From Prescottella sp. R16 (GTDB lineage: Bacteria; Actinomycetota; Actinomycetes; Mycobacteriales; Mycobacteriaceae), in contig NZ_CP130943.1 of the NCBI RefSeq assembly GCF_030656875.1, positions 310,001-374,000 on the forward strand: 64,000 bases of DNA, written 5' to 3'. The translations under genes were made by a program, and so were the position numbers. Of the stretch, positions 11,066 through 30,769 are shown in pieces. The stretch's first letter is position 1; the number at the start of each line of letters is the position of its first letter. Under the pieces are notes generated by a model. That model searched no databases. It had not been told where the DNA came from and saw only the letters and a program-made list of their open reading frames with translations.

Positions 11066-11106
11066 GTGATGGGGGTCACTGTAGCCGTTGGCTTTGGCGG
11101 CGTCAA
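11066..11106 (-). promoter_or_regulatory. promoter/operator element A of the catabolic regulon
   Basis: On the minus strand: -35 TTGACG (11101-11106), 17-bp spacer, -10 TACAGT (11078-11083). The spacer palindrome is imperfect here (AAAGCC...GGCTAC at 11081-11095), while the second palindrome GTGAC-CCCC-ATCAC (11066-11079) is present with one mismatch. It aligns without gaps to elements at 15268-15308, 17949-17989 and 29670-29710. It lies about 145 bp upstream of the OYE start and also codes for the read-through tail of the reductase pseudogene. Confidence 0.8.
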
Positions 11107-11739
11107 TGCATGCGGGTCCGTCGAGTGAACGGCGTCGGAGCTCGATCTCGATGGGGCCCGAATCGGGTCGCGCCTGGCATCCGAGGGCGTGACCTCCGGC
11201 GATATCGGACGGACCGAGGATGCCCGACTTCTCCATCAGCACCTTGCCCGAAACCACTGTGCACGCGCAGGATCCGTACTCACCCGACCGGCAGGAGAAT
11301 GGCACGTCGACACCACGATCCAGCAACACTTCGACGAGAGTGTTGTCGCTCGGCCACTCGAACCGATGCGACTCGCCGTCCGGGTGCACGACCGTCTCGA
11401 CCGCCGGATCGGGATCGTCGTCGACGATCGGCCGAGGAGCTTCGAAGAGGTCACCCGTGATCGAGATGAACGCTTCCTGATGGAAGTGCTCCACCGGAAC
11501 ACCGGCCGCTCGTACGCCATCGGCCGTACTGTCCATGAACGGTCCTGGGGCACAGGAGAAAACCTCGAACGAGTTGTGGTCCGCCGTCAGAGTTGCGAAC
11601 CTCTCCCGAGATGGGATGCCGTGCACGTCGTCGAACCAGTAGTGGATCGTCGGACGATCGACTTCGAATCCGAAGTCTCGTCGACGACGCCGACGACGGT
11701 CAGTTCGTATCCGACACCGGCGGTCTGCAAGATGCTCAC
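11100..11739 (-). pseudogene. internally deleted ferredoxin-type reductase (KshB/phthalate-reductase-like)
   Basis: The GTG at 11739 opens a typical reductase N-terminus (Tyr-Glu-Leu-Thr-Val-Val-Gly-Val-Val-Asp-Glu-Thr-Ser-Asp-Ser), which soon runs to a stop. Another frame picks up near 11690 in the NAD-domain end (Val-His-Gly-Ile-Pro-Ser, then Phe-Glu-Val-Phe-Ser-Cys-Ala-Pro-Gly-Pro-Phe-Met) and continues into a plant-type [2Fe-2S] domain ending Gly-Cys-Gln-Ala-Arg-Pro. The FAD part and most of the NAD part, well over 100 residues, are gone. The iron-sulfur motif reads Cys-Arg-Ser-Gly-Glu-Tyr-Gly-Ser-Cys, so the second cysteine ligand is a tyrosine. The reading frame then runs on through promoter A to 10952. 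It was probably the electron donor of the Rieske oxygenase. Confidence 0.8.
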
Positions 11740-12154
11740 TCTCGGTCGACTACGTTGTGTTCGTGAATTCGACTGTGACGTCCGATGTCTCGGACTCAGG
11801 CCAGGCGTACGCGCTGTTTCTTCCCGAATCCCGTGTGCCCCTCGTCCGCGGTGCGGGTGCGCCGGTCGGAACAGCGTTGGAAAACCACCGACGACATCAG
11901 TAGTGCCCGCGGCTCGCCGGGGATGTTCGCACCCGTGCTCATCAGCACCGCGCCAGGGGTGTCGAGGACCTGCTGGCGTCGCTCGGGACAGGTGATCGAT
12001 TCCTCTCCTTGTCCACTGGGAACGAGCGCTCCGGTCGACCGCGACCGAGACTGTGTGCCGTGACTGCGGTCACTACGACTCGGGGAAATGTATCCACCGG
12101 CCACGCGGTCGTCGACCGGTAATTGCGAAGTTGTCCGTTCGGGCTCGCCTCGAC
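11740..12154. other. gene-free stretch with one half of the regulon operator (12060-12073)
   Basis: No coding region could be supported in these 415 bases. At 12060-12073 lies GTGACTGCGGTCAC, matching the GTGAC-N4-GTCAC palindrome of the regulon promoters. On the minus strand it is preceded by A, as in the elements, but there is no TTGACG or GTAGCC palindrome at the right distance. It may be the worn-out promoter of the reductase pseudogene. A plus-strand frame opening at GTG 11763 stays open for 46 codons without resembling anything known. Confidence 0.4.
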
Positions 12155-12973
12155 TCAGAAACTCGACATGTCGTATGGGTACTTGTTGGTGATTCCGCCG
12201 TCGACGATCATCACCTGCCCGGTGATCGTTCGAGCGAGGTCGCTTACCAGGAAGGCCAGGGCGCTCGCGACGTCGGCCGGAAGCGTCAACCGCTGCAGCG
12301 GAATCTGGATGCGGGTGTTCTCGATCGCCTCGGCGTCGAGGATCGCCGAGATCCGCGGTGTGACGACGAAACCGGGAGCGACCGCATTCACGCGAACACC
12401 ATACGGCCCCAGTTCGATTGCTGCGGATCTGACCAGTGAACCGAGCGCTGCCTTGTAGACGCCGTAGGCGGCGTGTACTGGAGAGCTGCCGATACCGGAG
12501 ACCGACGAGACGAACGTGATGGATCCTTCACCGCGATCGCGCAGCCGAGGACCGAAATGCCTGAGTGTGAGCACCGCATGACGCAGGACGATGGACTCCT
12601 CCCAACGCCAGTCGTCGTCGCTGATGTCGAGCAGGGGACCGTAGCGTGCCATGCCGATGACGTCGACGACGCCGTCGAGCTCACCTGCCCGCTCGGACAA
12701 TGCGGCCATGTCGGAGTTGTCGGTGGCATCTGCTTGCTCCGGTGTGGCCGGTGAGCCGATCTCTACGCACACCGCGTCGGCGCGGTCCCGATTCACGTCG
12801 ACGACGACCACCTCGGCTCCGAGCTGAGCGAGGGCATGAGAGATCTGCCGTCCCGTCCCCTGGCCGCCACCGAGTACGAGGTACCGGCGGTGTGGGAGTT
12901 CGAATCGACTGCGGTAGTTGATGATCCGATCATTTTCTGCGGTGTCGTGCGACGGCACAGGGTTCAGGGGCAT
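12155..12973 (-). CDS. short-chain dehydrogenase/reductase
   Basis: A 272-aa classical SDR with an N-terminal extension of about 30 residues. The cofactor loop is Gly-Gly-Gly-Gln-Gly-Thr-Gly rather than the common Thr-Gly-x3-Gly-x-Gly. It has Val-Asp-Val-Asn for NAD, Ser-Ser-Val-Ser at the catalytic serine, and Tyr-Gly-Val-Tyr-Lys for Tyr and Lys. The usual Asn-Asn-Ala-Gly is replaced by Val-Ile-Gly-Met-Ala-Arg, so it is a divergent member. The ATG at 12973 has GGAG six bases upstream. It is the last gene of the minus-strand unit SnoaL-like / MFS / SDR under promoter B. The substrate is unknown, presumably an alcohol or ketone of the island pathway. Confidence 0.75.
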   Translation of the reverse strand: MPLNPVPSHDTAENDRIINYRSRFELPHRRYLVLGGGQGTGRQISHALAQLGAEVVVVDVNRDRADAVCVEIGSPATPEQADATDNSDMAALSERAGELDGVVDVIGMARYGPLLDISDDDWRWEESIVLRHAVLTLRHFGPRLRDRGEGSITFVSSVSGIGSSPVHAAYGVYKAALGSLVRSAAIELGPYGVRVNAVAPGFVVTPRISAILDAEAIENTRIQIPLQRLTLPADVASALAFLVSDLARTITGQVMIVDGGITNKYPYDMSSF

Positions 12974-13069
12974 GAGTACTCCGATCAGGAGGTAGGCGGC
13001 CTTCAGGCCGTGGAACCGTAGGCGTGGACCCGATGCGTGCCGACGCACCAGGGCCACGACCGGTGCGTG

Positions 13070-14446
13070 TCAAACCATCTTCGGGGTCGGTGAGGGCTCT
13101 TCGGCCGGATCCATGTCGATGGACTCGGTGTCGCCCGTGACGAGCGCGGCTTCGGGTGCAGCACTGCTGTTGCTGTTCGGCATGGTGGCGATCACCACGA
13201 TGCCCAGGAGGGCTGCAGCACCGACGACACCGGACGCAGCGTAGGGATTCCCCGTGATTGCAGTGAATTTCCCTGCGAGATAAGGGCCGAGGCCCCCGCC
13301 GATCGCCGAACCGAGACCGAATCCGATGGCAGCGCCGGTGTAACGAACTGCAGCAGGAAATGCGGAGGTGAGTGTCGCGTAGACCGGCACGGCGGATGCT
13401 CCGGCCAGGCCGACGAGAAGCATATGACCGCCGGCGGTGACGATCAGATTTCCGCCGGTGGCCTTTATGAAGTACATGATCGGGAACATCGTCACCAGGA
13501 TCGTGCCCAGCCCGATGATCATGGTGTTCCGCCGGCCACTCCTGTCGATCAGGAAGCCGGCCCCGAAGCCGATGAAGATGGCGCAGGTGGATCCGGCGGT
13601 GGCGATCCAGGCGGTGGTACCCGGGGCCATATCGACCTGCTGCTGCAGGAACAACGGCATGTAGGCCGGAACCACATATCCGATCGCGAGTACCGAGGTG
13701 CTGAGTGCGATCACTCGGAGCAGGGTCAGGGGGTACCGGGTGACGACCGAACGCACGGGGGAGGACTGGATCTTGTGTGCGCCGGCAAGTTCCTGGAAAT
13801 CGGGCGATTCCTCCAGTCGCTTGCGCAGATACAGCACGTACAGCATCAACGGTAGCGATATGAGGAGCGGAATCCGCCAACCCCAGTCGGCCATCGTCTC
13901 TTCAGACGTCAGGGAGGTGGTGAGGGCGACGACCAGGGGAGCGAGGGCGGCACCGAAGGCGAATCCCACCGGTGTCATCGCGCTCAGGATGCCGTAGTTC
14001 TTGGCGGAAGCGTGCTCGGTGACGAAGGTGGCCGAACCCATCTGCTCGCCGCCGGCGAAGAATCCTTGCAGCATACGAGTGAGTACGAGCAGGACCGGGG
14101 CCATGATTCCGACGGTGGCGTGCGTCGGCAACAGGCCCAGGAGAACAGTGGCCCCGCCCATACCGGAGATCGTGACGATCAGCGCGAAGCGCCGACCGTA
14201 TCGATCACCGATGCGGCCGAAGACCAGGCCGCCGATGGGGCGTGCGAGGAATCCGGTGCCGAGGACCGCGAGCGAGCTCAGGATTCCGGCCGCAGGGTTG
14301 TCGCTGGGAAAGAACAGAGGCGACAGGTAGGCGATGAGGAAGGTGAAGACCATGAAGTCATAGGCTTCGACGGCAGTTCCGAAGAAGCCTGCGAGAGAGG
14401 CCCTGCGGGCCAGGTTTCGCGAAGACGCGATCTCGGTCGAGTTCAT
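13070..14446 (-). CDS. MFS transporter, metabolite:H+ symporter (MHS/ShiA-like) family
   Basis: A 458-aa protein with about 12 membrane spans. The opening Ala-Gly-Phe-Phe-Gly-Thr-Ala-Val-Glu-Ala-Tyr-Asp-Phe and the loop Gly-Arg-Ile-Gly-Asp-Arg-Tyr-Gly-Arg-Arg after span 2 are diagnostic of the metabolite:H+ symporter branch, which imports carboxylates and similar small metabolites. Arg-Met-Leu-Gln-Gly-Phe-Phe-Ala-Gly-Gly-Glu is the conserved span 4 motif. The C-terminus is acidic and polar. It lies between the SnoaL-like gene and an SDR on the minus strand, so it is likely to import the island's substrate, or a related acid, in the inner membrane. Confidence 0.82.
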   Translation of the reverse strand: MNSTEIASSRNLARRASLAGFFGTAVEAYDFMVFTFLIAYLSPLFFPSDNPAAGILSSLAVLGTGFLARPIGGLVFGRIGDRYGRRFALIVTISGMGGATVLLGLLPTHATVGIMAPVLLVLTRMLQGFFAGGEQMGSATFVTEHASAKNYGILSAMTPVGFAFGAALAPLVVALTTSLTSEETMADWGWRIPLLISLPLMLYVLYLRKRLEESPDFQELAGAHKIQSSPVRSVVTRYPLTLLRVIALSTSVLAIGYVVPAYMPLFLQQQVDMAPGTTAWIATAGSTCAIFIGFGAGFLIDRSGRRNTMIIGLGTILVTMFPIMYFIKATGGNLIVTAGGHMLLVGLAGASAVPVYATLTSAFPAAVRYTGAAIGFGLGSAIGGGLGPYLAGKFTAITGNPYAASGVVGAAALLGIVVIATMPNSNSSAAPEAALVTGDTESIDMDPAEEPSPTPKMV

Positions 14447-14582
14447 ATCGATCCTGTTCGATTTTGTCCTCCGGCATGCTCACCGGGGAAAGTTCGGTTC
14501 CGACTCGTTGCAGGCAGGTCTCGTGAGTGGACCGCGCAGATGTCGAACCTCCGCGGCGGGCGGAGGCAGGTGTCTTTCCGAT

Positions 14583-15083
14583 TCACATTCGACGTGTGCC
14601 GGCCCGGCCCGGTCCGCTACCGGGCACGTAGCCGAGCAGGGTCCGGGGTTCCGACATGGATGTGGTGGTGACGCGGTCGGAGATCTGCCACGTGGCAGTC
14701 GATCCGGCCCGCGCGTATTCGATGTCGTAGTAGCCGACGAGCCGCTGCGACGGTGATCCTGGAGTGACGAACGAACCGAACCATTCCATGTGAACTCGGC
14801 TCGGGGTCCGATTCCCGACGAGGGTGGTCTGCGGGAGATGCATCGGATGGATGCCGGTGAAGGGAGCGTCCTCGCAGAATGCGTGGAGGGATTTCCTGCC
14901 CTGAACGGACGTGCCCGTCGACAGTTCCTGACCCACATCGCGTGACCGGTGGATCCGGTCCGGCGTGAACAGGGACGACCACGTCGCTCCGTCACGATCG
15001 TCGAAGGAACGCGCGTAGTGGCCCTCCAGCTCCAGGATCGCCGATCGATCCTCCATCGCTCGGATTCTGTACTCGCTGTCCAT
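14583..15083 (-). CDS. SnoaL-like / NTF2-fold protein
   Basis: A 166-aa protein with the alpha+beta cone pattern of SnoaL-type proteins: Glu-Asp-Arg-Ser-Ala-Ile-Leu-Glu-Leu-Glu-Gly-His-Tyr-Ala-Arg-Ser-Phe-Asp-Asp-Arg-Asp, then Trp-Ser-Ser-Leu-Phe. Members are hydratases, isomerases, epoxide hydrolases, or the small subunits of ring dioxygenases; no catalytic residues settle which. The ATG at 15083 has GGAAG seven bases upstream. Starts further up would read through promoter B itself, so they are rejected; the leader is about 185 bases. It is the first gene of the operon with the MFS symporter and an SDR, and divergent from the TetR regulator. Confidence 0.65.
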   Translation of the reverse strand: MDSEYRIRAMEDRSAILELEGHYARSFDDRDGATWSSLFTPDRIHRSRDVGQELSTGTSVQGRKSLHAFCEDAPFTGIHPMHLPQTTLVGNRTPSRVHMEWFGSFVTPGSPSQRLVGYYDIEYARAGSTATWQISDRVTTTSMSEPRTLLGYVPGSGPGRAGTRRM

Positions 15084-15267
15084 GGCGCTTCCGCGCAACG
15101 TTGTGGGTGGCACTTCAACCTCCTGAACTGGGGGCAACAGCGGCAGCACTCGGAGTCCCGTACGAAACGATCCATGACGAAGGTCGAGACGGGTCGCGGG
15201 GTGGCGGACCGGCACGGGATGTCGTCGGAATTCGACAGCCGGCTGTGAGTCTCCCGAGCCGTGGCCG

Positions 15268-15308
15268 GTGACCGTCGTCACAGTAGCCATTGGCTACGAT
15301 TGCGTCAA
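15268..15308 (-). promoter_or_regulatory. promoter/operator element B of the catabolic regulon
   Basis: On the minus strand: -35 TTGACG (15303-15308), 17-bp spacer, -10 TACTGT (15280-15285). The palindrome GTAGCCAATGGCTAC (15283-15297) is perfect, and so is GTGAC-GACG-GTCAC (15268-15281). It reads toward the SnoaL-like/MFS/SDR operon and lies in the divergent gap 5' of the TetR gene, so one bound repressor could also control the regulator. Confidence 0.85.
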
Positions 15309-15468: not shown

Positions 15469-16497
15469 ATGGAGCACCTCAGTGAGGCCGCCGCCTTGGC
15501 CGACGACGTCTGGACCACGCCGCAGGTGGCGAGTTTTCTGGGTATCAGCCGTCAGGCGATCAACAGGCGTGTCCGCAGCCGGAAGATGCTCGGATATGCG
15601 GGCGACGGGGTGACGCTCTTTCCGGTGTGGCAGTTCGACACCGAGAATCACACGGTCCATCCCGAGGTCCCCGAGTTCCTCGCGCTCCTCGACGAGGAGA
15701 TCGAACCGGCCGCCGTCGCCTTGTGGGCGATCACGAAGGTCGACGGATCGGATCGGTCGCCGGCCGAGCTGTTGCTGGCCCCGGAGACCAAGGACGACGC
15801 GCTGAGGCTGGCCGGCGCCTGCACGACCGGCTCGATCGAGAAACATCCTGCGCTACAGGTCGAGGCGGACCCGGAAGTCGCGGCGGAGAAGATCGCCGAG
15901 TGGAAGCCGACCCGCCCTGGGGCGTCCGGAGCGCAGGAGGCCATCCTGCGCGCCGCCGCGGATCTCTTCTCGCGCAAGGGCCCGGCGAAGGTGACGTTGC
16001 GGGAGATCGCCGCCGAGGCGGATGTGTCGTACGGATTGATCCACCGCTTCTACCGCACCAAGGAGAACCTGCTGGTTGCGGTGATGGAGCTGCTGGTCAG
16101 CTATGGCGGCGAGCGCCTGTCCGGGGAGGACGACGCCTACGCTGCGATCGAGAACTCGTTCGGCGCCGATATCGACGCGGGTCAGTTCGGTCGGATGCTG
16201 ACGTGGTCGATCTTCGAGGGAACTCGACCGGATCGTCTGCTCGGCGGAGTCCGTTCACGTGGCTATCGTTCGCAGATCGACGCACTGTGGGGGAACCCGG
16301 TCGAGCCGCAGGTACGGGCCGAGTTCGATTCGAATGTGCTGGCGTCTCTGATCGCGCTCGTCGGCGCGGTGTGGGATCTCTACGAGCCGTATCTCACCGA
16401 GCTCGCCGACAATCCGGATCGCAGTCGAGAAGATGTCCGGCAGGAAGTTACAGACATGCTCAAAGTCCTCATTTACGCGACCCGGCCGAACAGATAG
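15469..16497 (+). CDS. TetR-family regulator with an extra N-terminal helix-turn-helix region (probable regulon repressor)
   Basis: A 342-aa protein, far longer than the usual 190-220 aa TetR. Residues from about 155 form a normal TetR DNA-binding domain (Ala-Ile-Leu-Arg-Ala-Ala-Ala-Asp-Leu-Phe, Val-Thr-Leu-Arg-Glu-Ile-Ala, Tyr-Gly-Leu-Ile-His-Arg-Phe-Tyr), followed by a ligand-binding half. Residues about 13-40 look like a second HTH of MerR/excisionase or Xre type (Trp-Thr-Thr-Pro-Gln-Val-Ala-Ser-Phe-Leu-Gly-Ile-Ser-Arg-Gln-Ala-Ile-Asn). After it comes Phe-Pro-Val-Trp-Gln-Phe-Asp and an alpha-helical stretch resembling MbcA/ParS-type antitoxin folds. It is divergent from element B. That placement, plus two palindromes per promoter, makes it the best candidate to control the island. 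A TAGGGT lies nine bases before the ATG. Confidence 0.75.
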   Translation: MEHLSEAAALADDVWTTPQVASFLGISRQAINRRVRSRKMLGYAGDGVTLFPVWQFDTENHTVHPEVPEFLALLDEEIEPAAVALWAITKVDGSDRSPAELLLAPETKDDALRLAGACTTGSIEKHPALQVEADPEVAAEKIAEWKPTRPGASGAQEAILRAAADLFSRKGPAKVTLREIAAEADVSYGLIHRFYRTKENLLVAVMELLVSYGGERLSGEDDAYAAIENSFGADIDAGQFGRMLTWSIFEGTRPDRLLGGVRSRGYRSQIDALWGNPVEPQVRAEFDSNVLASLIALVGAVWDLYEPYLTELADNPDRSREDVRQEVTDMLKVLIYATRPNR

Positions 16498-17948: not shown

Positions 17949-17989
17949 TTGACGGCAACGTAGCCACTGGCTACAGTGATGGCAGTCAC
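17949..17989 (+). promoter_or_regulatory. promoter/operator element C of the catabolic regulon
   Basis: -35 TTGACG (17949-17954), 17-bp spacer, -10 TACAGT (17972-17977). GTAGCCACTGGCTAC (17960-17974) is a perfect palindrome; GTGAT-GGCA-GTCAC (17976-17989) has one mismatch. It drives the plus-strand Rieske operon, whose start is about 170 bp downstream. Apart from this element the gap 17662-18157 shows nothing recognisable. Confidence 0.85.
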
Positions 17990-18157
17990 GGTGTGTTGTG
18001 GTGATCTGTGGACGTGATCGCGAGTCTTTCGTCCGAGCTCCGGTGGGGTGTCATGTCGGCGCACATCGTCAGTAGCGATCCGTGAAAGCCCTTGTTGCAG
18101 ATCATCTTCTGCGCACTTTCCGGAAGCGTCGCTGTTGCAACAGTTCAGGAGGATGAA

Positions 18158-19201
18158 GTGTCACCTATGGCGTTATCGATGAGGCCGACGGGGTGGTTCC
18201 AGCTCGGTTGGTCTTCCGACCTCGAAGTGGGCGACGTCAAACCCCTGCACTACTTCGGTCAAGATCTGGTCGCCTACCGCACCGAGGGCGGCCGCCTGGT
18301 GGTTCTGAACGCATACTGCGAGCACCTCGGTGCTCATCTGGGGCATGGCGGCACGGTTGCCGGCGACGATATCCAGTGTCCGTTCCACGGATGGCGGTGG
18401 AGCCCGGAGGGTCGTAACACCTGCATTCCGTATCAGAAAGCGACGAACCGGGTCCGCAGGATCGGAGTCTGGAACACCGCTGAGCGCGACGGAATCATGT
18501 ACCTCTGGTACGACGCCAACGGCGGAGACCCGCTCTACGACGTGCCCAGCATCTTCGACATGTTTCCCGGTTCCGGTTCGGCGAGCGAATACCACGAGCT
18601 GGGGGAAGCCGGCCGCTTCGAGACTGTTGAGCTGCCGATCCATCCGCAGTACGCCGCTGAGAACGGTGTCGACTTCGCGCATTTCAAGTACGTGCACCGC
18701 GCCGACGAGATTCCGACGGTCGTGCACCGCGAATTCGGTGAGTACGACTTCACGACCGAGCTGGCCATGAACTTCAAGCGCCGCGGCGCCGACGGTGCGA
18801 TCGAGGTTGTCCCTGGCCGTACCAGGGCCTTGCTGCTGGGGCTGGGGCTGGGCTACTCACATGCCGACGGCGTCGGGTCCATCTGCTCACTGACAGCGGT
18901 GACGCCCGTCGACGACGAGCGCTCGATCCTGCGGTTCTCCACGTGGGCGAGCAAGGAAGACGGCGAGGACGAATCTCGAGTGGCCAAGCGGCAGCGCAAC
19001 GCAATCGGACAAGTCAAGGCCGACATCGCAATCTGGGAGCACCAGCGCTACACCGAGCCGCCCGGCCTGGCGACTGCCGAAGCCGCGGGCTTCCGCGACA
19101 TCCGCAAGTGGGCTCGTCGCTTCTACCCCGAGGGGACCCTCGGCCACGGCGCCGCCGAGCAGACCGCAGGCACCGACGAACTACAGGCGGAAAACGCATA
19201 A
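18158..19201 (+). CDS. Rieske non-heme iron oxygenase, oxygenase component (KshA-like)
   Basis: A 347-aa protein. The Rieske [2Fe-2S] motif is Cys54-x-His56 and Cys74-x2-His77, and the mononuclear iron site is Asn169-Gly-Val-Asp172-Phe-Ala-His175-x4-His180. The order and length match single-component-alpha oxygenases such as 3-ketosteroid 9-alpha-hydroxylase, which hydroxylate alicyclic or steroid rings using a separate reductase. No intact reductase is in the window; the likely partner at 11100-11739 is broken. The GTG at 18158 has AGGAGG five bases upstream; an in-frame ATG three codons later is too distant. It is the first gene of a long operon; its TAA overlaps the ATG of the next gene. 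Confidence 0.85.
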   Translation: MSPMALSMRPTGWFQLGWSSDLEVGDVKPLHYFGQDLVAYRTEGGRLVVLNAYCEHLGAHLGHGGTVAGDDIQCPFHGWRWSPEGRNTCIPYQKATNRVRRIGVWNTAERDGIMYLWYDANGGDPLYDVPSIFDMFPGSGSASEYHELGEAGRFETVELPIHPQYAAENGVDFAHFKYVHRADEIPTVVHREFGEYDFTTELAMNFKRRGADGAIEVVPGRTRALLLGLGLGYSHADGVGSICSLTAVTPVDDERSILRFSTWASKEDGEDESRVAKRQRNAIGQVKADIAIWEHQRYTEPPGLATAEAAGFRDIRKWARRFYPEGTLGHGAAEQTAGTDELQAENA

Positions 19202-20358: not shown

Positions 20359-20366
20359 GAGAGATC

Positions 20367-21443: not shown

Positions 21444-21445
21444 CC

Positions 21446-22252
21446 ATGTCGCTGATCGATTACAAGGTCGAGGACGCAGTCGGTGTCATCACTCTGAACC
21501 GTCCGGAGAAGCACAACGCCCAGAACGAGCCGATGCTCGAAGAGCTCGACGCTGCGTGGCGTGCTGCGGCAACCGATGACGCGGTCAAGGTCATCGTCGT
21601 GCGAGCCAACGGCGACAACTTCTCAGCCGGGCACGACCTGAAGTCGACGACCTCCGGCTACGAACCGTCGGCAGTCAAGAGCCAGCTGGAGAACGCGTAC
21701 GGATGGGAGACCGAGTACTACCTCGGCTTCTCGCGTCGGTGGCGCGATGTGCCCAAGCCGTCTATCGCCTCGGTCAAGGGCGCGTGCATCGCAGGCGCAC
21801 TGAACGTCATCTGGCCGTGCGACCTCATCGTCGCTGCCGACAACACGTTCTTCAGCGATCCGGTCGCCATGTACGGGATCGGCGGAGTCGAATACCACGC
21901 GCACACCTGGGAACTCGGCGCTCGCCGGGCGAAGGAGATGCTCTTCACCGCGCGGAGCGTCTCGGCGGAGGAGGCGTTCGCGGCCGGCATGGTCAACCGT
22001 GTCGTGCCGGTCGACGAGCTCGACGCCCGGACTATGGATCTCGCCCGTGAGATCGCGCAGATGGACGCCTGGGCCCTGCGGCAGGGCAAGCGCGCCGTCA
22101 ATCAGACCCTGGACATCATGGGACAGCAGGCAGCACTCCAGTCGGCGTTCGACATGCACTGGCTCGGTCACGCGAATTCCATGCTGACCACCGGCTATCC
22201 GCTGCTCACTGCGGATCCACTGCCGGCGGAGTCGAAGAAGGACCGTACGTGA
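21446..22252 (+). CDS. enoyl-CoA hydratase/isomerase (crotonase) family protein without the usual catalytic glutamates
   Basis: A 268-aa crotonase: Gly-Val-Ile-Thr-Leu-Asn-Arg-Pro, Phe-Ser-Ala-Gly-His-Asp-Leu (first oxyanion-hole segment) and Lys-Gly-Ala-Cys-Ile-Ala-Gly-Ala (second). In true enoyl-CoA hydratases the second segment leads to a catalytic Glu (Gly-Gly-Gly-x-Glu-Leu) and another Glu about 20 residues on. Here they read Ala-Leu-Asn-Val and Ser-Asp-Pro-Val. The protein may therefore be a C-C hydrolase, isomerase or another crotonase chemistry on a CoA ester rather than a plain hydratase. It begins 2 bp after the dehydrogenase stop and overlaps the CoA ligase start by four bases. Confidence 0.78.
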   Translation: MSLIDYKVEDAVGVITLNRPEKHNAQNEPMLEELDAAWRAAATDDAVKVIVVRANGDNFSAGHDLKSTTSGYEPSAVKSQLENAYGWETEYYLGFSRRWRDVPKPSIASVKGACIAGALNVIWPCDLIVAADNTFFSDPVAMYGIGGVEYHAHTWELGARRAKEMLFTARSVSAEEAFAAGMVNRVVPVDELDARTMDLAREIAQMDAWALRQGKRAVNQTLDIMGQQAALQSAFDMHWLGHANSMLTTGYPLLTADPLPAESKKDRT

Positions 22253-23820
22253 ACGCGGCCGATCGGATCAGCGACGCGACGTCGATCTGGTCTCTGCTCA
22301 CCCGTCGAGTCGATGCGACCCCCGATGCTGTCGCACTGATCGACGAGAACGGTCGAAGCGAGACGTTCGCCAGTGTGCTCGCAGCCGCTGAGCGCACTGC
22401 GGCCGGCCTGCTGGCCAAGGGCATCGAGCCGGGCGACGTCGTCAGCTGGCAGCTCCCCACCAGTATCGACGCCGTCATCCTGAGTCTGGCTCTGTCGAGG
22501 ATCGGCGCCGTACAGAACCCGATCATTCCGCTCTACCGCGCGCGTGAGGTCACGGCCATGGTCGAGCAGTGCGCGTCGCAGTGGCTCGTCACCGTCGGTG
22601 AGTTCCGCGGATACGATCACGGTCGGATGGCCGAGGAGGTCCGCGCGGCGGTGTCCGCCCCGCTGCAGGTCATGGTCCTCGCCGACAGGCTGCCCGAGGG
22701 CGATCCGGCTGCACTGGCGCCGGCCGAGTCCGGTGTGGACGAGATCCGTTGGATATACACGACGTCCGGAACCACATCGGCTCCGAAGGGTGTCTGCCAC
22801 ACCGACAGCACTCTCGTTGCTGGAGGGCTCGGGATCGCGGACGCCCTCGGGGTGACTCGTGCCGACACCGGAACGATCCTTTTCCCGTACGCGCACATCG
22901 GCGGACCCGACATGCTGATCGCATCATTGTCGAGCGGCATGGCGTTGGTCCTGATGGCGGTCTATGAACCGGTGGCTGCGGTCCGGCTGATGCGTCGACA
23001 CGGCGTCACACTCACCGGCGGATCGACCCCGCACTACTCCCTCCTCCTCCAACAGCAACGGAGGACGCCGGGAGCTCCGGTGGTCCCGACCCTGCGGATG
23101 CTCACCGGTGGCGGCGCGCCGATGCCGGAGAAGCTGTTCCACGAGGTCTCCACCGAGATCGGCGTACCGATCCTGCACGGGTACGGGATGACGGAGTCGC
23201 CGATGATCGCGTCGGCCCGTCCGTCCGACACCGTCGAACAGCTCGCGACGACCTCCGGGCGTCCTGTCCTGAACTGCGAGATCCAGATCCGGTCCGAGTC
23301 CGACGAGGTGCTGCCCGTCGGCGGCACCGGCCGAGTGTGGGTGCGCGGTCCGATTCTGTTCAAGCACTACATCTCCGACGGCGGCGTCGTCCGTCCGTTC
23401 GACGCCGACGGTTGGTTCTTCACCGGCGACATCGGCAAGCTTGGACGTGAGGGTCACCTCACGCTCGTCGGTCGCGAGAAGGACCTCATCATCCGCAAGG
23501 GCGAATCGATCAGCCCGTCCGAGATCGAAGACGTTCTGGATAAGCACCCCGCAATCGAGGAAGTCGCAGTGATCGGCCTCCCGGACGAAGTCCGCGGGGA
23601 ACGGATCTGCGCGGTCGTACAGATGATCGACCAGGGACAGAGCCTCGATCTCGACGAACTGAGGGACTACTGCCGAGGGTCGGGCATCTCTCCCGCGAAG
23701 TTCCCCGAGCAGCTCGAGTTCGTCACGGAACTGCCCAAGACCCCGACGATGAAGATCCGCAAGCAGAACTTGCGTGAGCGCATTCTCGACCGTCAGGTCG
23801 CAGCACACACCGGTGCCTGA
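22249..23820 (+). CDS. AMP-dependent acyl-CoA synthetase/ligase
   Basis: A 523-aa ANL-superfamily ligase. The P-loop is Tyr-Thr-Thr-Ser-Gly-Thr-Thr-Ser-Ala-Pro-Lys-Gly, followed by His-Gly-Tyr-Gly-Met-Thr-Glu-Ser, Trp-Phe-Phe-Thr-Gly-Asp-Ile, the hinge Gly-Arg-Glu-Lys-Asp-Leu-Ile-Ile-Arg-Lys-Gly and, near the end, a Pro-Lys-Thr-Pro-Thr-Met-Lys catalytic lysine. It activates a carboxylic acid with ATP and CoA, giving the thioester for the dehydrogenase pair and crotonase encoded just upstream. The GTG start overlaps the crotonase stop (GTGA). The acid is probably the ring-opened product of the Baeyer-Villiger route, but the chain type cannot be told. Confidence 0.85.
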   Translation: MNAADRISDATSIWSLLTRRVDATPDAVALIDENGRSETFASVLAAAERTAAGLLAKGIEPGDVVSWQLPTSIDAVILSLALSRIGAVQNPIIPLYRAREVTAMVEQCASQWLVTVGEFRGYDHGRMAEEVRAAVSAPLQVMVLADRLPEGDPAALAPAESGVDEIRWIYTTSGTTSAPKGVCHTDSTLVAGGLGIADALGVTRADTGTILFPYAHIGGPDMLIASLSSGMALVLMAVYEPVAAVRLMRRHGVTLTGGSTPHYSLLLQQQRRTPGAPVVPTLRMLTGGGAPMPEKLFHEVSTEIGVPILHGYGMTESPMIASARPSDTVEQLATTSGRPVLNCEIQIRSESDEVLPVGGTGRVWVRGPILFKHYISDGGVVRPFDADGWFFTGDIGKLGREGHLTLVGREKDLIIRKGESISPSEIEDVLDKHPAIEEVAVIGLPDEVRGERICAVVQMIDQGQSLDLDELRDYCRGSGISPAKFPEQLEFVTELPKTPTMKIRKQNLRERILDRQVAAHTGA

Positions 23821-23919
23821 CATCCGTCTGCCCGCAGTCGTAGGCCGCGCAGACGATCCGCCCCAGAACTCGACAGTGACGCCTATGCGTTCATGCCCAG
23901 GGCATGTACAGGAGTGAGA

Positions 23920-25833
23920 ATGAAGCCCCAAATGCCAGACCGTAAGTTTGTGGAACGCGCGGTCGCCGACGCCGATGTGAACGTCCTGCGAATGGCTCTG
24001 TTCCAGGCAACCCGCGATCCCGACATCGCCGCAGTGCCCGCCGAGCGTGTCGCGGGACTGGTGTCGGACACCGTGGTGTTCTCCGATGACGATACTGATC
24101 TGATCAGGTCGAAGGCCGTCGAGTACCTGATGTCCGGCGATCTCGCCGATGATGATCAGACACCGTCGGACGATGAGATCACCGATCTCATCCTCATGGC
24201 GGAGGCCCGACACTTGGCGTCCGACGATCTGCGCATGCGCCGCCGGATCCTGTCCTTTCCCGAGTGGCCCTTCCAACGGGAGCGGACGGGGGAAAAGCGT
24301 GTCCCCGCCGGCTACTCGGTCGCGATCATCGGAGCCGGGTTCTCCGGGATCGCCATGGGAGTTCAGCTTGCCCGACTCGACATTCCGTTCACCATCTACG
24401 AGCGGCGCTCGGAGATCGGGGGAGTCTGGAGCATCAACACCTATCCTGACGTCCGTGTCGACACGCTCAGTGCGTCGTACGAGTACTCCTTCGAGAAGAA
24501 GTACCCGTGGACGGAGTACTTTGCGAGCCAGTCCGAGGTACGCACGTACCTCGACCACGTCGCACGCAAGCACGGCGTGTTCGAGCACATCGTCTTCGAC
24601 GCGGATGTGACGTCCGCGCGGTTCGACGATGTGGAGAAGACGTGGACCCTGACGGTGGCGGAGGCGGAGCAGCCACCGACCACCGTCGTGGCCAACGTCG
24701 TCGTGGCCGCGAGCGGGCTGTTCGCGACCCCGCGCGAACTGCCCGTCGAGGGCGCAGCGGAGTTCGCCGGTCAGATCGTGCACACCACGGAGTGGAACGA
24801 CTCGATCGACTACGCCGGGAAGAACGTCGCCATCATCGGCAACGGCTCGACCGGTGTCCAGTTGCTGTCGAAGATTGCGAATGAGGCGGCGTCGGTAACG
24901 GTCTATCAGCGGACCCCTCAGTGGATCTCGCCGCGCGCGAAGTACGGCGAAGCGATCTCCGACGAGCTGCAGTGGCTTTTTCAGACAATGCCGTTCTACT
25001 GGAACTGGAACAAGTACATCGCCGGATTCGCGTCGAACGACCTTCGAGAACTCCTCATCGCGGACGAACAGTGGATCGCCGATGGCGGCGTTGTGAACAA
25101 GCGCAACGATGCCATGCGGGAGATGCTGGTCGGGTACATCCGCGACCAGGTGAACGACCGTGAGGACCTGATCGACGAACTGGTTCCGGACTACCCCCCG
25201 ATGACGCGGCGTCCTGTGGTCGACAATCAGTGGTACGCGTCGCTCACCAGGGACAACGTCGAACTGGTGACGACCCCGATCGAGCGTCTCAGCGACGGAG
25301 CCGTGCAGACCTCCGACGGAGCCGTGCGCGACGCCGATCTGATCATCGCCGCAGTCGGTTTCCAGACCGAGAAGTTCCTGTGGCCGACCGAGTACGTCGG
25401 TGTGGACGGGGTGAGTCTGGAAGACGTGTGGAAGGTCCAGGGCGCACAGGCACATCTCGGCATGACCGTTCCGGGCTTCCCGAACCTGTTCATGCTCTAC
25501 GGTCCCAACTCCCAGCCGGTCGCGAGTGGCGCGGGGCTGCCGATCTGGCTGGAGACCTGGTGCGGCTACATCGCCGAGGGGATCCTGACGATGCTCGCCA
25601 ACGGGCACGCGTCGATGGAAATACGGCGTGAGGCGTTCGACCACTACAACGAACAGCTGCACAAGGAGGCCTGTCGGCTGATCTACCTCTCGCAGACGAG
25701 CGCGACGCGAAAGAACTACTACGTCAACAAATGGGGTCGCCTGCAGATCAGCGCTCCGTGGGACGGCGAAGAATACTTCGCGATGTGCGTCCATCCTCGT
25801 CTGAGCGATTTCGACTTCGCGAGCGCGGAGTAG
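23920..25833 (+). CDS. Baeyer-Villiger monooxygenase, HAPMO-like, with N-terminal extension
   Basis: A 637-aa class B flavin monooxygenase. Gly138-Ala-Gly-Phe-Ser-Gly binds FAD, the BVMO fingerprint Phe282-Ala-Gly-x3-His288-x3-Trp292-Asn is intact, and Gly307-Asn-Gly-Ser-Thr-Gly binds NADPH. About 130 residues precede the first Rossmann fold, as in 4-hydroxyacetophenone monooxygenase (about 640 aa), whose extension helps dimerise. It inserts oxygen next to a carbonyl, giving an ester or lactone. The ATG at 23920 has AGGAG six bases upstream, about 100 bp after the ligase, and it ends the promoter C operon. It differs clearly from the second BVMO at 31302, so two ketones or two ring positions may be processed. 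Confidence 0.87.
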   Translation: MKPQMPDRKFVERAVADADVNVLRMALFQATRDPDIAAVPAERVAGLVSDTVVFSDDDTDLIRSKAVEYLMSGDLADDDQTPSDDEITDLILMAEARHLASDDLRMRRRILSFPEWPFQRERTGEKRVPAGYSVAIIGAGFSGIAMGVQLARLDIPFTIYERRSEIGGVWSINTYPDVRVDTLSASYEYSFEKKYPWTEYFASQSEVRTYLDHVARKHGVFEHIVFDADVTSARFDDVEKTWTLTVAEAEQPPTTVVANVVVAASGLFATPRELPVEGAAEFAGQIVHTTEWNDSIDYAGKNVAIIGNGSTGVQLLSKIANEAASVTVYQRTPQWISPRAKYGEAISDELQWLFQTMPFYWNWNKYIAGFASNDLRELLIADEQWIADGGVVNKRNDAMREMLVGYIRDQVNDREDLIDELVPDYPPMTRRPVVDNQWYASLTRDNVELVTTPIERLSDGAVQTSDGAVRDADLIIAAVGFQTEKFLWPTEYVGVDGVSLEDVWKVQGAQAHLGMTVPGFPNLFMLYGPNSQPVASGAGLPIWLETWCGYIAEGILTMLANGHASMEIRREAFDHYNEQLHKEACRLIYLSQTSATRKNYYVNKWGRLQISAPWDGEEYFAMCVHPRLSDFDFASAE

Positions 25834-26025
25834 GAACGCAGCGACGTACTCGTTCTCGAGCACGCCGTCGCTCGGAGAGGGCCTGTAGTTCACCGTGAAG
25901 CGGGTTTCGTCCGGGGATGGGTCGAACCGGCTGTGCATCATGAAATCAACACTGGTGCAAGGAGTTCGGCGGGAAAAGGTCTGATTGAAATTGAGTTCTG
26001 ACCGCAGGACTCGGCCCGATTTGTC

Positions 26026-26040
26026 GTGCGACCGTCGCAC
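26026..26040. repeat. 15-bp perfect palindrome upstream of an SDR gene
   Basis: GTGCGAC-C-GTCGCAC sits 6 bp before the AAGGAGG of the SDR at 26064. It is not the GTAGCC/GTGAC operator of the regulon. It could be an operator for another regulator or a small hairpin in the leader. The stretch 25834-26025 holds nothing else that can be supported. Confidence 0.4.
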
Positions 26041-26063
26041 GCGCTGAAGGAGGTTTGCCGTAC

Positions 26064-26819
26064 ATGGGCAATCGAATGCAGGACAAGATCGTCATCGTCA
26101 CCGGTGCAGCGTCGGGTCTCGGACGAGCCACTGTCGAGCTGATGGTCGCGGAGGGTGCCACCGTGGTCGCCGCCGACGTCGACGTTGAGGCCGGAGCGGC
26201 AGCCGCCGCTGCGGCGGGTGCGGAGTTCGTACAGACCGATGTCGCGGACTCGGCTGCGGTGGACAGCCTGGTCAGCGGCGTTGTCGAGCGCTACGGCCGG
26301 CTCGACGTGATGGTGAACAACGCGGGAGTGTTCGGCGGCAGCCCGCTGATCGACGCATCCGATGAGGAAGTCGACCGCATGGTCGGTGTGAACATTCTCG
26401 GAGCCTTCTACGGCACCCGGGCAGCCGGTCGAGTGATGGCTGCGCAGGGTTCGGGCGCCATCGTGAACACCGCCTCGAACGGCGGCTCGCTGCCGACCGA
26501 GGGTATGGCGTTCTACAGCGGCTCCAAGGCCGCCGTGATCGGGATGTCGAAGGCCTGTGCAATCGAGCTTGCCCCCAAAGGGGTGCGCGTCAACACCCTG
26601 TCACCGGGCACCATGTTGTCCGGGATGGTCCCGCCAGACCCCGAGTTCATCAAGGTGCTCCACGGGATCCAGCCGATCGGCTACGCCGCAGATCCGGCGC
26701 AGATGGCGACCGGCATCCTGTACCTCGCATCCGATGAGGCCAATTACGTGACCGGTCACGACCTGGTCGTGGACGGAGGCGCTACGGCCGGCCGGCCCGC
26801 GATCGAGGGTGCGAAGTAG
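26064..26819 (+). CDS. short-chain dehydrogenase/reductase
   Basis: A 251-aa classical SDR: Thr-Gly-Ala-Ala-Ser-Gly-Leu-Gly loop, Asp-Val-Asp after beta-2 (NAD preference), Asn-Asn-Ala-Gly, and Tyr-Ser-Gly-Ser-Lys. At the position of the usual catalytic serine the stretch reads Asn-Thr-Ala-Ser-Asn-Gly-Gly, so the serine may be shifted or replaced. The ATG at 26064 is ten bases after AAGGAGG; a TTG three codons earlier is too close. It likely oxidises a hydroxy intermediate to the ketone used by a BVMO. A decayed relative of this gene is at 8154-8231. It is followed on the same strand by the LLM flavoenzyme and a zinc alcohol dehydrogenase. Confidence 0.82.
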   Translation: MGNRMQDKIVIVTGAASGLGRATVELMVAEGATVVAADVDVEAGAAAAAAAGAEFVQTDVADSAAVDSLVSGVVERYGRLDVMVNNAGVFGGSPLIDASDEEVDRMVGVNILGAFYGTRAAGRVMAAQGSGAIVNTASNGGSLPTEGMAFYSGSKAAVIGMSKACAIELAPKGVRVNTLSPGTMLSGMVPPDPEFIKVLHGIQPIGYAADPAQMATGILYLASDEANYVTGHDLVVDGGATAGRPAIEGAK

Positions 26820-26943
26820 AGGAAAATCCGCAGACGCGAGGCGAGCGAGTCGATCATGCGCTCGTTCACCTTGCGGGCACGGTGTTCCGTGGTCGTGACG
26901 ACCCGCCGGCCGTGTTGTAGATATGAGGGGCTGGAGCTGCGGC

Positions 26944-27885
26944 ATGAAGTTCACACTGGAGTATCCGAGTGACGTCCCCCAGGCCCACCCGAGCCTGTTC
27001 TCGGGCGCGTCGCTCGCCCGGATCAGTCGGCGCGCCGAGATCTGCGGGTTCGATGCGGTGTGTCTCGCGGATCATCCCGCGCCGTCGGCGAAGTGGTATC
27101 GCAACGGCGGTCACGACACGTTCGAGCCTGTCGTCGCACTGGCGTTCGCAGCAGCGGCGACGACGTCCTTGACGCTCATGACGAATCTGTTCGTCCTGCC
27201 GTTCCGGAACCCGTATCTGGCGGCGAAGCAACTCACCACCCTCGATACCCTCTCCGGAGGCAGGCTGGTCGCAGGCGTAGGGGCCGGTTATCTGCGATCG
27301 GAGTTCGCGGCCCTGGGGGTCGATTTCGACCGCCGCGCCGAGCTGTTCGACGAGTCCATCGACGCACTGTGCCGAATCTGGACCGATCCGTCGACCCCGG
27401 TCGTAGGCGCCGACTTCGGCGGCACAGGTGAGATGCGGTTGCGCGAACCGGTTCAGCGCCCTCATCCGCCGGTGTGGATCGGCGGGAACAGTGCGGCGGC
27501 GCGGCGTCGGGTCACGCAGTTCGGTAGCGGATGGTGTCCGGTCATCGCCGACCCTGGTGTGTCCGACGCGATCAGGACTCCGGCGATCGACGGCGTCGAC
27601 GCGTTCGGAGCCGCGGTCGACGACCTCGGCGACCAGCTCGAGCGAGCGGGCAGAAGCTTGTCGGAGATCGAGATTCAGGTCGAGGCGCCCGCCGTCGACC
27701 TCGACGACGCCGCGTCGGTGGCACGGTGGCATCGCGATGTCGACCGGCTACGAGATGCCGGCGCCACGTCACTGTGCGTGCACGCGGACGCGAGATCGTT
27801 GGCGGCTTCCGAAGAGTTCATCGACGGATACCGTCAACTCATGGCCCTGGTGGACACATCCGACGTTCCGGATAGTCGGCCCTGA
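26944..27885 (+). CDS. LLM-class (luciferase-like) flavin-dependent oxidoreductase
   Basis: A 313-aa TIM-barrel of the bacterial luciferase superfamily: Ala-Glu-x-Cys-Gly-Phe-Asp-Ala-Val-Cys-Leu-Ala-Asp-His-Pro, then Arg-Asn-Pro-Tyr-Leu-Ala-Ala-Lys-Gln-Leu, Gly-Gly-Arg-Leu-Val-Ala-Gly-Val-Gly-Ala-Gly-Tyr and Pro-Pro-Val-Trp-Ile-Gly-Gly-Asn. The set is common among F420- or FMNH2-using members of actinobacteria; which cofactor is used is not clear. It could reduce an enone or ketone, or act as a monooxygenase. The ATG at 26944 has GGAG seven bases upstream. A decayed second copy is at 29370-29600. Confidence 0.8.
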   Translation: MKFTLEYPSDVPQAHPSLFSGASLARISRRAEICGFDAVCLADHPAPSAKWYRNGGHDTFEPVVALAFAAAATTSLTLMTNLFVLPFRNPYLAAKQLTTLDTLSGGRLVAGVGAGYLRSEFAALGVDFDRRAELFDESIDALCRIWTDPSTPVVGADFGGTGEMRLREPVQRPHPPVWIGGNSAAARRRVTQFGSGWCPVIADPGVSDAIRTPAIDGVDAFGAAVDDLGDQLERAGRSLSEIEIQVEAPAVDLDDAASVARWHRDVDRLRDAGATSLCVHADARSLAASEEFIDGYRQLMALVDTSDVPDSRP

Positions 27886-27948
27886 CGAAGAGTTCCGCCA
27901 TCGATCTCGCTGCACATGGGAATCCCCGTCGATGAAAAGGATTGAGGA

Positions 27949-29001
27949 ATGCGCGCTTTCAGGATAATGGCACCGTTGACTGCACCGACATGGGACGAGG
28001 TTCCCGAACCGACACCGGGTCCGGGGGAGGTGGTGCTTCGGGTGTCTGCCGTCGGACTGTGCCGTTCCGATCTCGACATGCAGGAGATGCCTGCGGCCGC
28101 GGTCGAACCGGCTGGGTGGAAGTTCCCGTTCAGTCTCGGTCACGAGATCGCCGGAGAGGTCGCCGTACTGGGCGAGGGCGTCGATCATCTGAGAGTGGGC
28201 GAGCCCGTCGTGGTCCTGCCTGCGAGCAGTTGCGGACGGTGCTGGTACTGCCTGCGTGGCGCCCCCAACAACTGCAGCAATGCATCCTCCGGCCGCGGGT
28301 TCGGCGATGACGGCGGACTCGCCGACTTCGTACTCGTGAAGAATGCACGTGACATCGTTCCACTCGGCGGGCTCGACCCGATCCATGCCGCTCCGCTCGG
28401 CGATGCGGGCTCCACCGCCTACCACGGAGTCGACCGCATCCGGGGATCGTTGACGCCTGAGTCGACCGTCGTCGTGTTCGGTGCGGGCGGGCTGGGATCC
28501 TTTGCCGTCCAGTTCCTCCGCGCCGTGAGTCCCGCCTTCGTGGTCTCCGTCGACATGTCGACGGAGAAGCTGGCGATGGCGCGAGAACTCGGTGCCCACG
28601 AGACGTTCGAGGGCGTGAACGACTCGACTCTCGACCGGATCCGCGAGCTGACCGACGGCCGAGGAGCCGACGCGCTCCTGGACTTCGTCGGGACCGACCA
28701 GACCATCGCCACCGGTATCGCCGCCGTGCGGCCCGGCGGCAAGTACGGTCTGATCGGCGCGGGCGGCGGGCGTCTCGCGACGCCCGGTGAGTGGTTCCAC
28801 CTGCTGCCGCGTGACGGCGAGATATTCACTTATCAGGGATCGACTGTGAGCGATCTCGAATCGGTGATGGTGCTGGCTCGGCGCGGAATGATCCAGAGCC
28901 CGGTCGAGGTGTTCTCGCCCGACGAGATCGAGACGGCCTACGACAAGCTCCGAGACGGCTCACTGCGCGGCCGTGCCGTGATCGATTTCGCTCGTTCCTG
29001 A
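27949..29001 (+). CDS. zinc-dependent alcohol dehydrogenase (MDR superfamily)
   Basis: A 350-aa enzyme with Gly-Leu-Cys-Arg-Ser-Asp and Gly-His-Glu-Ile-Ala-Gly for the catalytic zinc, the structural cluster Cys-Gly-Arg-Cys-Trp-Tyr-Cys-x7-Cys, and the cofactor loop Gly-Ala-Gly-Gly-Leu-Gly with Val-Asp-Met after it. It is only distantly similar to the ADH at 16591-17661, so it is not a recent duplicate. It would oxidise an alcohol or hydroxyacyl compound. It follows the LLM gene by 63 bp, with AAAGGA upstream of the ATG, and ends the SDR-LLM-ADH group. Confidence 0.83.
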   Translation: MRAFRIMAPLTAPTWDEVPEPTPGPGEVVLRVSAVGLCRSDLDMQEMPAAAVEPAGWKFPFSLGHEIAGEVAVLGEGVDHLRVGEPVVVLPASSCGRCWYCLRGAPNNCSNASSGRGFGDDGGLADFVLVKNARDIVPLGGLDPIHAAPLGDAGSTAYHGVDRIRGSLTPESTVVVFGAGGLGSFAVQFLRAVSPAFVVSVDMSTEKLAMARELGAHETFEGVNDSTLDRIRELTDGRGADALLDFVGTDQTIATGIAAVRPGGKYGLIGAGGGRLATPGEWFHLLPRDGEIFTYQGSTVSDLESVMVLARRGMIQSPVEVFSPDEIETAYDKLRDGSLRGRAVIDFARS

Positions 29002-29149: not shown

Positions 29150-29290
29150 AACCACACCTTCCGAGTGACGTGGTAGGCGCTCGGTGGGAACCCTGCAGAT
29201 CGGCTCGACGTCGACATCCTCCTCGTGGCTGTCGATGTGGTCGACGATCACTGGTGCCGGCGGTCGAGCTCCGCCTCGGGGAAGCCGATG
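29150..29290 (-). mobile_element. remnant of an IS3-family transposase (OrfB N-terminus)
   Basis: On the minus strand one frame reads Val-Ile-Val-Asp-His-Ile-Asp-Ser-His-Glu-Glu-Asp-Val-Asp-Val-Glu-Pro-Ile-Cys-Arg, continuing Val-Pro-Thr-Glu. IS3 OrfB proteins of actinobacteria have the same pattern near their start (Phe-Ile-Asp-x-His-x5-Gly-Val-Glu-Pro-Ile-Cys-Arg-Val-Leu). Nothing of the catalytic DDE domain or of inverted ends is visible. It lies in the 835-bp gene-poor gap 29002-29836 with other debris. Confidence 0.45.
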
Positions 29291-29369
29291 CAGACTTCGG
29301 AATCGTTTTGGCCTGCTGGAGCTTCGGGTGCGCGCACACGTTGAACACGCATTTGACCTGTCACGCAAC

Positions 29370-29600
29370 GGATTCGGTGACAATCATTGCGAATCCATTC
29401 GCCGTGCCGCTTCCGGAATCCGCATCCGGCGGCGAAGGAACTCGCCACCCTCTCCGGAGACAGGTCGGGCGCAGGCGTGGGCGGCATCGTGGCGTCGACC
29501 GACCGTGAGAGGCCGGCGCTACGCCGCTGTATGTGTACACAGATGACCGCTGACGGCTGAGGAGGCGTTCATTGACGGATACTGCGAGCTCATAGCCCGG
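29370..29600 (+). pseudogene. decayed, internally deleted copy of the LLM flavoenzyme gene
   Basis: DNA at 29386-29485 aligns with the LLM gene around its Asn-Leu-Phe-Val-Leu-Pro-Phe-Arg-Asn-Pro ... Thr-Leu-Ser-Gly-Gly-Arg part, with a six-base or longer deletion and frameshifts. DNA at 29559-29597 then aligns with its last conserved piece, Glu-Glu-Phe-Ile-Asp-Gly-Tyr-Arg-Gln-Leu-Met. Roughly 150 codons between these pieces are absent. No reading frame is open across it. It must come from a duplication of the 26944-27885 gene, or a close relative, followed by decay. Confidence 0.65.
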
Positions 29601-29669
29601 AACGGGTGCGCCTGCCGCCCTTGGCAGTTGGGTTGAACTGCTTCTGTGAGCACTGGTTCACACAACTTG

Positions 29670-29710
29670 TTGACGAAGTAGTAGCCGCTGGCTACAGTGA
29701 CTCTGGTCAC
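29670..29710 (+). promoter_or_regulatory. promoter/operator element D of the catabolic regulon
   Basis: -35 TTGACG (29670-29675), 17-bp spacer, -10 TACAGT (29693-29698). GTAGCCGCTGGCTAC (29681-29695) has one off-centre mismatch; GTGAC-TCTG-GTCAC (29697-29710) is perfect. It drives the cyclase/VOC/BVMO/EthD-like operon, whose first start is about 130 bp downstream. Confidence 0.85.
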
Positions 29711-30727: not shown

Positions 30728-30769
30728 TCGACGACCACTCACTGATTCGGATCGAGAGGAATTGCCGCA

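Follow-up and report, generated by a model that had tools for sequence, protein, structure and literature searches.

A 41-bp core-promoter element with two palindromes marks a putative catabolic regulon in Prescottella sp. R16 and related actinobacteria

The described systems closest to the locus reported here are the TetR-family operators that overlap core promoters, the CRP/GlxR sites of actinobacteria, the mycobacterial protein Rv2175c, and the KshA/KshB steroid 9-alpha-hydroxylase with its KstR regulon. Passages of PMC4218801 and PMC7999487 give the consensus of the CRP site as TGTGA-N6-TCACA. Sites adjoining the transcript start are treated as repression sites in the former (PMC4218801), and aceA is named among the GlxR-repressed genes in the latter (PMC7999487), while a portion of PMC4601284 places Rv2175c under kinase control. 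In this study, a stretch of 64,000 nucleotides from Prescottella sp. R16 (contig NZ_CP130943.1; hereafter the window) was analyzed, in which four copies of a 41-bp element, E1 to E4, precede four operons with a catabolic gene content (Table 1). It was proposed, with a probability of about two in three, that each element is a core promoter with two independent brakes, where a repressor encoded in the cluster would bind within the spacer and CRP would bind near +1.

The four elements share one layout of 41 columns. The -35 box TTGACG occupies columns 1-6 and is followed by five free bases. The first palindrome, GTAGCCAnTGGCTAC (GTAGCCA-n-TGGCTAC), lies in the spacer at columns 12-26, and its final TAC starts the -10 box (columns 24-29). 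The second palindrome, GTGA-N6-TCAC, covers columns 28-41 in E1-E4. The features of a sigma-A promoter (TTGACA-like -35, 17-bp spacing and TANNNT -10) were found as TTGACG-N17-TACWGT in all four elements. An earlier note, made from the letters of the window, had located these elements exactly, strands included; the alignment was gapless over 41 columns, TTGACG, 17 bp and TACAGT or TACTGT recurred in every copy, and the spacer palindrome was perfect in two of them, as the note had said. Its form of the second palindrome, GTGAC-N4-GTCAC, was exact in E2 and E4 only. The form common to all four was GTGA-N6-TCAC, which replaced it as the definition of the motif on the basis of elements compiled from relatives.

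Any two elements were identical at 28-33 of 41 bases (68-80%), whereas their 100-bp flanks on either side were 22-34% alike. Therefore, the elements were not recently copied, in agreement with the claim of the earlier note that their conserved parts are under selection. The likeliest start codons of the four operons lay about 132-174 nt downstream of the expected +1. The Shine-Dalgarno sequences of these starts were good in three operons and weak in the E1 operon.

The pattern TTGACG-N17-TACWGT matched four times in the window, always at E1-E4, when the mean of shuffled sequences was 0.01 and 0 of 100 shuffles reached four. The whole 4.57-Mb genome contained the same four matches only, and the reversed-pattern control gave 0. 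The second palindrome, GTGA-N6-TCAC, occurred five times in the window, all within E1-E4 and a decayed fifth element (shuffle mean 1.49; 3 of 100 shuffles reached five). The spacer palindrome was not specific by itself, as at two mismatches the genome gave three of the elements and four other places, with 35 in the reversed control. Hence, the specificity comes from the palindrome together with the -35 and -10 boxes.

Further, the distribution of the element was determined in 301 genomes of the family. The gene for a TetR fusion protein, which is encoded in the cluster and proposed below as the regulator, was found in 15 genomes. The 41-bp pattern (at most 3 mismatches) was found in 14, all of them among these 15, and the reversed pattern in 0 of 301 (Fisher p 3.5e-23). 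The fifteenth genome, G243, lacked GTGA-N6-TCAC in register ahead of its Rieske operon, where the -35 and the operator were perfect (L090:16459); the element was therefore present in 15 of 15 genomes with the TetR fusion. A stricter 29-base pattern was used to scan 84,980 species genomes and gave 33 matches in 28 stretches, against a chance expectation of about 0.03-0.17 matches; this list may omit records of the window itself and very near ones. Homologues of window genes adjoined 26 of the 28 stretches, so that the confinement to homologous clusters expected in the earlier note was largely observed, both here and in the 14 of 301 family genomes. The other two were a Nocardia vermiculata contig (L092), whose genome has the TetR gene, and a Bacteroidales metagenome-assembled genome (L094), where it was absent. 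The genera carrying the element were Rhodococcus, Gordonia, Tomitella, Nocardia and Microbacterium. Microbacterium resistens, which belongs to another order (Micrococcales), had the elements, cluster genes and the TetR fusion at 62% identity (L106, L109), including two divergently oriented elements (L106:4547 and 4617), both without a CRP-like site. One element of G221 was located about 2.4 Mb away from the TetR gene, 2.9 kb ahead of a homologue (81%) of SDR1, a short-chain dehydrogenase/reductase (SDR) of the window.

The relation between the two palindromes was assessed in a larger set of elements. In an earlier set of 42 sites, the second palindrome mostly had C or T after GTGA and G or A before TCAC. 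These sites had been chosen at no more than 3 mismatches over the complete pattern, a limit biased towards intact second palindromes. Such preselection was avoided by compiling 61 distinct elements by the -35 box and the first palindrome alone, with at most 4 mismatches over both, a box at the exact spacing that agreed with TTGACG in 4 or more of its 6 bases, and a terminal TAC. Three places where the TTGAC box was closer or further away by one base (L068:9320, L084:8975, L090:16256) and three look-alikes in coding regions (L052:2147, L054:4059, L081:9015) were left out. Among these 61, which come from fetched loci, have common ancestry and are not independent, an exact GTGA-N6-TCAC was recorded within 60 nt downstream in 48 (offset 1 in 42, 16 in 4, 13 in 1 and 23 in 1). 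None of the 61 had it in the 70 bp upstream, and it was found in 66 of 20,000 random 60-mers. The second palindrome was thus shifted by 12, 15 or 22 bp relative to the first in some elements and missing in others, and the two palindromes are therefore separate modules. The shifted form was observed mainly at one promoter, ahead of a hydrolase/SDR/Baeyer-Villiger monooxygenase (BVMO)-like operon (L052, L054, L080, L061, L108; domains checked in L052), as well as in the decayed element of the window, and once at an old-yellow-enzyme (OYE) promoter (L069).

The GTGA-N6-TCAC sequence of E1-E4 and of the decayed fifth element corresponds to the core of the CRP/GlxR site. The genome encodes a CRP (L091:1569-2360, minus strand) that aligned over 230 residues with 3i54, which we take to be the CRP of M. 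tuberculosis (E 8.6e-136), and also with 4byy, presumably the corynebacterial GlxR (E 2e-112). The recognition segment ASRETVNKALADFAHRG was identical in the CRP of this genome and 3i54. The sequence GTGAYN4RTCAC occurred 39 times in the genome and 7 times in the reversed control, and 5 of the 39 were in the elements described here. When 19 CRP-like sites outside the window were inspected, 11 were outside coding-like frames, 7 were inside them, of which 5 were no more than about 130 nt from the upstream stop, and 1 was deep in a clear gene, as called by a rough method based on GC at third codon positions without a control set. It was proposed that the second palindrome functions as a CRP-type site, not perfect in consensus, to which CRP would bind. 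The earlier note had assigned both palindromes to one repressor. This was not supported, as the second palindrome has a CRP/GlxR-type core, is shifted or missing relative to the first in some elements and, in one form, is over-represented elsewhere in the genome. A pair of distinct inputs is more probable than a double block by a single repressor.

The proposed regulator was the only protein with a DNA-binding domain match among the cluster genes scanned at 9-36 kb (NCBIfam and/or Pfam). Its TetR helix-turn-helix (HTH) matched PF00440 at residues 159-205 with an E of 3.8e-15, and solved TetR proteins matched residues 150-342 of the structure model. The N-terminal domain was predicted to consist of a winged HTH and a C-terminal helical part with the fold of Rv2175c, at 18% identity to that protein (2kfs). 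The spacer palindrome is conserved and inherited together with this gene. On the best reading, the cluster repressor would be an Rv2175c-like domain fused to TetR, which is an uncommon regulator design. Among the papers listed in searches of open-licence PMC, none fitted the regulon or the fusion, and to that extent the regulon appears undescribed, as the earlier note had it. It was also observed that G204 has two paralogous TetR fusions about 4 kb apart (C51:244788-245828 and 249585-250598), which were 59% and 72% identical to that of the window.

We proposed the following sequence of events. The near-consensus sigma-A-type core promoter TTGACG-N17-TACWGT should work without an activator. A dimer of the Rv2175c-TetR fusion would bind GTAGCCAnTGGCTAC and fill the spacer and the first half of the -10 box; since the operator fills these parts, the bound dimer should exclude RNA polymerase. 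A pathway metabolite would release the repressor and admit the polymerase, and the transcript would be expected to start about 7 nt after the -10 box. The cAMP-CRP complex (GlxR type) would bind GTGA-N6-TCAC, which is centred near -2 in most elements and roughly between +10 and +20 where it is shifted, and at such positions it would be expected to repress as a general carbon control. The promoter would then be an OFF-unless gate, where transcription needs both the pathway signal and a low CRP occupancy.

Several findings weigh against the two proposed brakes. An exact second palindrome was lacking in 13 of the 61 elements; in 7 of these a copy with 7 of 8 bases was present at offset 1 or 16, and in 6 there was no such copy. 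The full TGTGA-N6-TCACA was not found at any site of the window, and one site was within one mismatch of it (15267-15282). The structure model of the whole fusion was moderate (mean pLDDT 65.8), and for the C-terminal half of TetR the model was too weak for a comparison of ligand pockets. All 15 genomes with the TetR fusion, and no others of the 301, had the Rieske gene of the cluster (identity of at least 67%, with 48% as the next best match); the element is therefore tied to the whole cluster and not to the TetR gene alone. Such co-occurrence cannot separate TetR from the cluster, which leaves room for a regulator of the first palindrome encoded elsewhere. In addition, parts of PMC4218801, PMC7999487 and PMC3917453 describe CRP and GlxR as activators of many promoters, the last two in the case of GlxR, so that CRP might activate or fine-tune rather than repress. 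Both departures, alone or together, appeared rather improbable, as the sites adjoining the transcript start repress in the passages of PMC4218801 mentioned above, and the TetR fusion, the sole DNA-binding candidate of the scanned cluster genes, accompanies the element in Microbacterium. Four similar 41-mers within 18.6 kb might also suggest a repeat or mobile sequence that was copied and has no regulatory role. This explanation was rejected as having hardly any probability left, given the unalike flanks, the five inner bases that vary freely, the promoter position and orientation, the conservation across genera and the decay of the copy in front of a deleted operon. The earlier note would have taken a 41-mer at hundreds of unrelated places as a sign of a repeat, when the genome gave only four matches.

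A single protein might also read the whole element, with its TetR half on the spacer palindrome and its Rv2175c-like half on GTGA-N6-TCAC or on the TTGACG box, and thus clamp the core promoter twice, which is the alternative nearest to the earlier note. Some room for one protein on both palindromes is given by G109, G041, G182 and G221, where the left flank mirrors the GTGA arm and a longer palindrome is formed, which is a further point against two separate inputs. However, the second palindrome agrees with the CRP core, is present across the genome without the first one and is missing in some elements, while TTGACG is one-sided, unlike a dimer site. When elements were selected by the palindrome alone, 57 had TTG at the -35 distance, of which TTGACG was found in 54, TTGCCT, TTGCCA and TTGACT in 1 each, and TTGACA in 0. 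This preference may be a matter of the sigma factor or a contact of the extra domain. TTGACG was not supported as an abnormal -35 box for this genome, in which TTGACG-N17-TANNNT was not rarer (13 sites, 4 of them E1-E4; control 3) than TTGACA-N17-TANNNT (6 sites; control 0). We consider the single reader unlikely. A two-handed clamp is a similarly doubtful version of it, where the TetR half would hold the spacer palindrome and the Rv2175c-like half a second contact (TTGACG or the GTGA arm). That second hand would possibly be open to another signal, such as phosphorylation by a kinase, with CRP as a third layer. The cluster repressor in the spacer and CRP near +1 were thus retained as the preferred explanation.

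Table 1. Positions of the elements, the proposed regulator, the operons and the deletion scar in the window.
Feature	Position	Strand	Description
E1	11066..11106	-	-35 TTGACG 11101-11106; imperfect operator AAAGCCAACGGCTAC 11081-11095; -10 TACAGT 11078-11083; CRP-like GTGACCCCCATCAC 11066-11079; precedes leftward OYE/SDR operon
E2	15268..15308	-	perfect operator GTAGCCAnTGGCTAC 15283-15297; -10 TACTGT; CRP-like GTGACGACGGTCAC 15268-15281; precedes SnoaL-MFS-SDR operon
E3	17949..17989	+	perfect operator GTAGCCAnTGGCTAC 17960-17974; -10 TACAGT; CRP-like GTGATGGCAGTCAC 17976-17989; precedes Rieske/acyl-CoA dehydrogenase/enoyl-CoA hydratase/ligase/BVMO1 operon
E4	29670..29710	+	operator with one mismatch 29681-29695; -10 TACAGT; CRP-like GTGACTCTGGTCAC 29697-29710; precedes cyclase/glyoxalase/BVMO2 operon
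Decayed fifth element	12060..12115	-	TCGACG-accgc-GTGGCCGGTGGATAC 12087-12115; intact GTGA-N6-TCAC GTGACCGCAGTCAC 12060-12073, 15 bp downstream of usual place
Proposed regulator	15469..16497	+	Rv2175c-like winged-helix domain (about residues 13-120), flexible linker, TetR (HTH 159-205)
E1 operon	8339..10920	-	old-yellow-enzyme type (N-ethylmaleimide reductase subfamily), SDR, Polyketide_cyc2-family protein; probable extent
E2 operon	12155..15113	-	SnoaL-like protein (frame of open reading frame 14583-15290, likely start 15113), MFS transporter, SDR
E3 operon	18158..29001	+	KshA-like Rieske oxygenase, two acyl-CoA dehydrogenases, enoyl-CoA hydratase, CoA ligase, BVMO1, SDR, F420-type luciferase-like monooxygenase (LLM) oxidoreductase, alcohol dehydrogenase
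E4 operon	29837..33983	+	PF04199 cyclase, glyoxalase-fold protein, BVMO2, 264-aa protein
Reductase fragment and deletion scar	10952..12150	-	2Fe-2S C-terminal part (10952-11626); scar of hydrolase/SDR/BVMO-like operon

The names in the E3 operon are class names, as most NCBIfam matches were below the equivalog cut-offs. The Rieske enzyme of this operon was nearest to KshA (4qdf), and BVMO2 of the E4 operon had 5mq6 as its closest solved relative. These two enzymes suggest an alicyclic or polycyclic compound as a possible substrate of the pathway. The 264-aa protein of the E4 operon gave no Pfam or NCBIfam match. The pieces found by blastn in the interval that separates the reductase fragment from the SDR (12155) indicated the stepwise loss, in the window, of an operon that G084, G123 and G051 have. 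The decayed fifth element is what is left of its promoter. The -35 box and the operator have decayed where this operon is gone and are kept where the operons persist, in this one case.

The E2 and E3 operons have a common start region, CAGGAGG-(T/A)TGAAGTG-(C/T)CACC (15095-15125 on the minus strand and 18140-18170 on the plus strand). The palindrome CTGTTGCAACAG (18132-18143) lies directly ahead of the Shine-Dalgarno sequence of the Rieske gene and is kept or nearly so in several close relatives and not in distant ones. A conserved leader structure was rejected, as the leader was alike only between close relatives. A promoter-like sequence without the operator, TTGACGGTGGAACTGTGCGCCCCTAGCAT, was located at 17789-17817 on the minus strand, about 130 bp ahead of position 17661, where the divergent alcohol dehydrogenase may start.

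The same genome has a second group of promoters (G000 C1:1375086, 2819618, 2846361, 4121446; L177-L180), with TTGACA-N17-TAACGT or TAAAGT and TTAAG(G)-N5-CCTTAA in the spacer. Two of them precede TetR and TauD genes, one precedes a TauD gene and one a nitroreductase/AMP-ligase pair. The design of an operator within the spacer recurs here, and 4 of the 6 TTGACA-N17-TANNNT sites carry TTAAG(G)-N5-CCTTAA. A CRP-like GTGACCC located 7 nt after the -10 box of this group was dismissed, as by eye it is more likely to represent start codons of TetR genes. Another TTGACG promoter, before an aldehyde dehydrogenase gene (L176:1701; G000 C1:1290700, minus strand), has two tandem TTAGCCATATGGCTA palindromes, the half-sites of which resemble those of the operator studied here but have a two-base centre.

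The 41-bp signature marks a putative catabolic regulon that spans two orders. It illustrates a possible way of fitting pathway-specific and global control into one core promoter without any upstream sequence. The natural variants with a shifted or missing second site make both proposed inputs separable by reporters.

The element resembles the TetR-family operators that overlap core promoters in having a palindromic operator inside the polymerase site of catabolic operons near a regulator gene. It differs in that the regulator has an additional N-terminal domain of a DNA-binding type, and one operator design is used at four promoters in a fixed register to the -35 and -10 boxes; no description of this operator was found in the searches made of the open-licence literature. 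As in the CRP/GlxR sites of actinobacteria, the intact second palindromes fit GTGA-N6-TCAC, and the CRP of the genome has the recognition segment of 3i54. However, the T and A at the two ends of the consensus are absent in most cases (GTGA is preceded by A or T, and the position following TCAC varies), and in most elements the site is fixed to the -10 box and +1 of a TetR-type promoter. Rv2175c is a DNA-binding winged-helix protein of mycobacteria, whereas its distant counterpart here would be fused to a TetR repressor. The KstR operator probably differs from the present one. The cluster is similar to the KshA/KshB system and the KstR regulon in its Rieske enzyme nearest to KshA, its CoA-type catabolism and its probable TetR control, but it has another regulator architecture and contains BVMOs and a cyclase.

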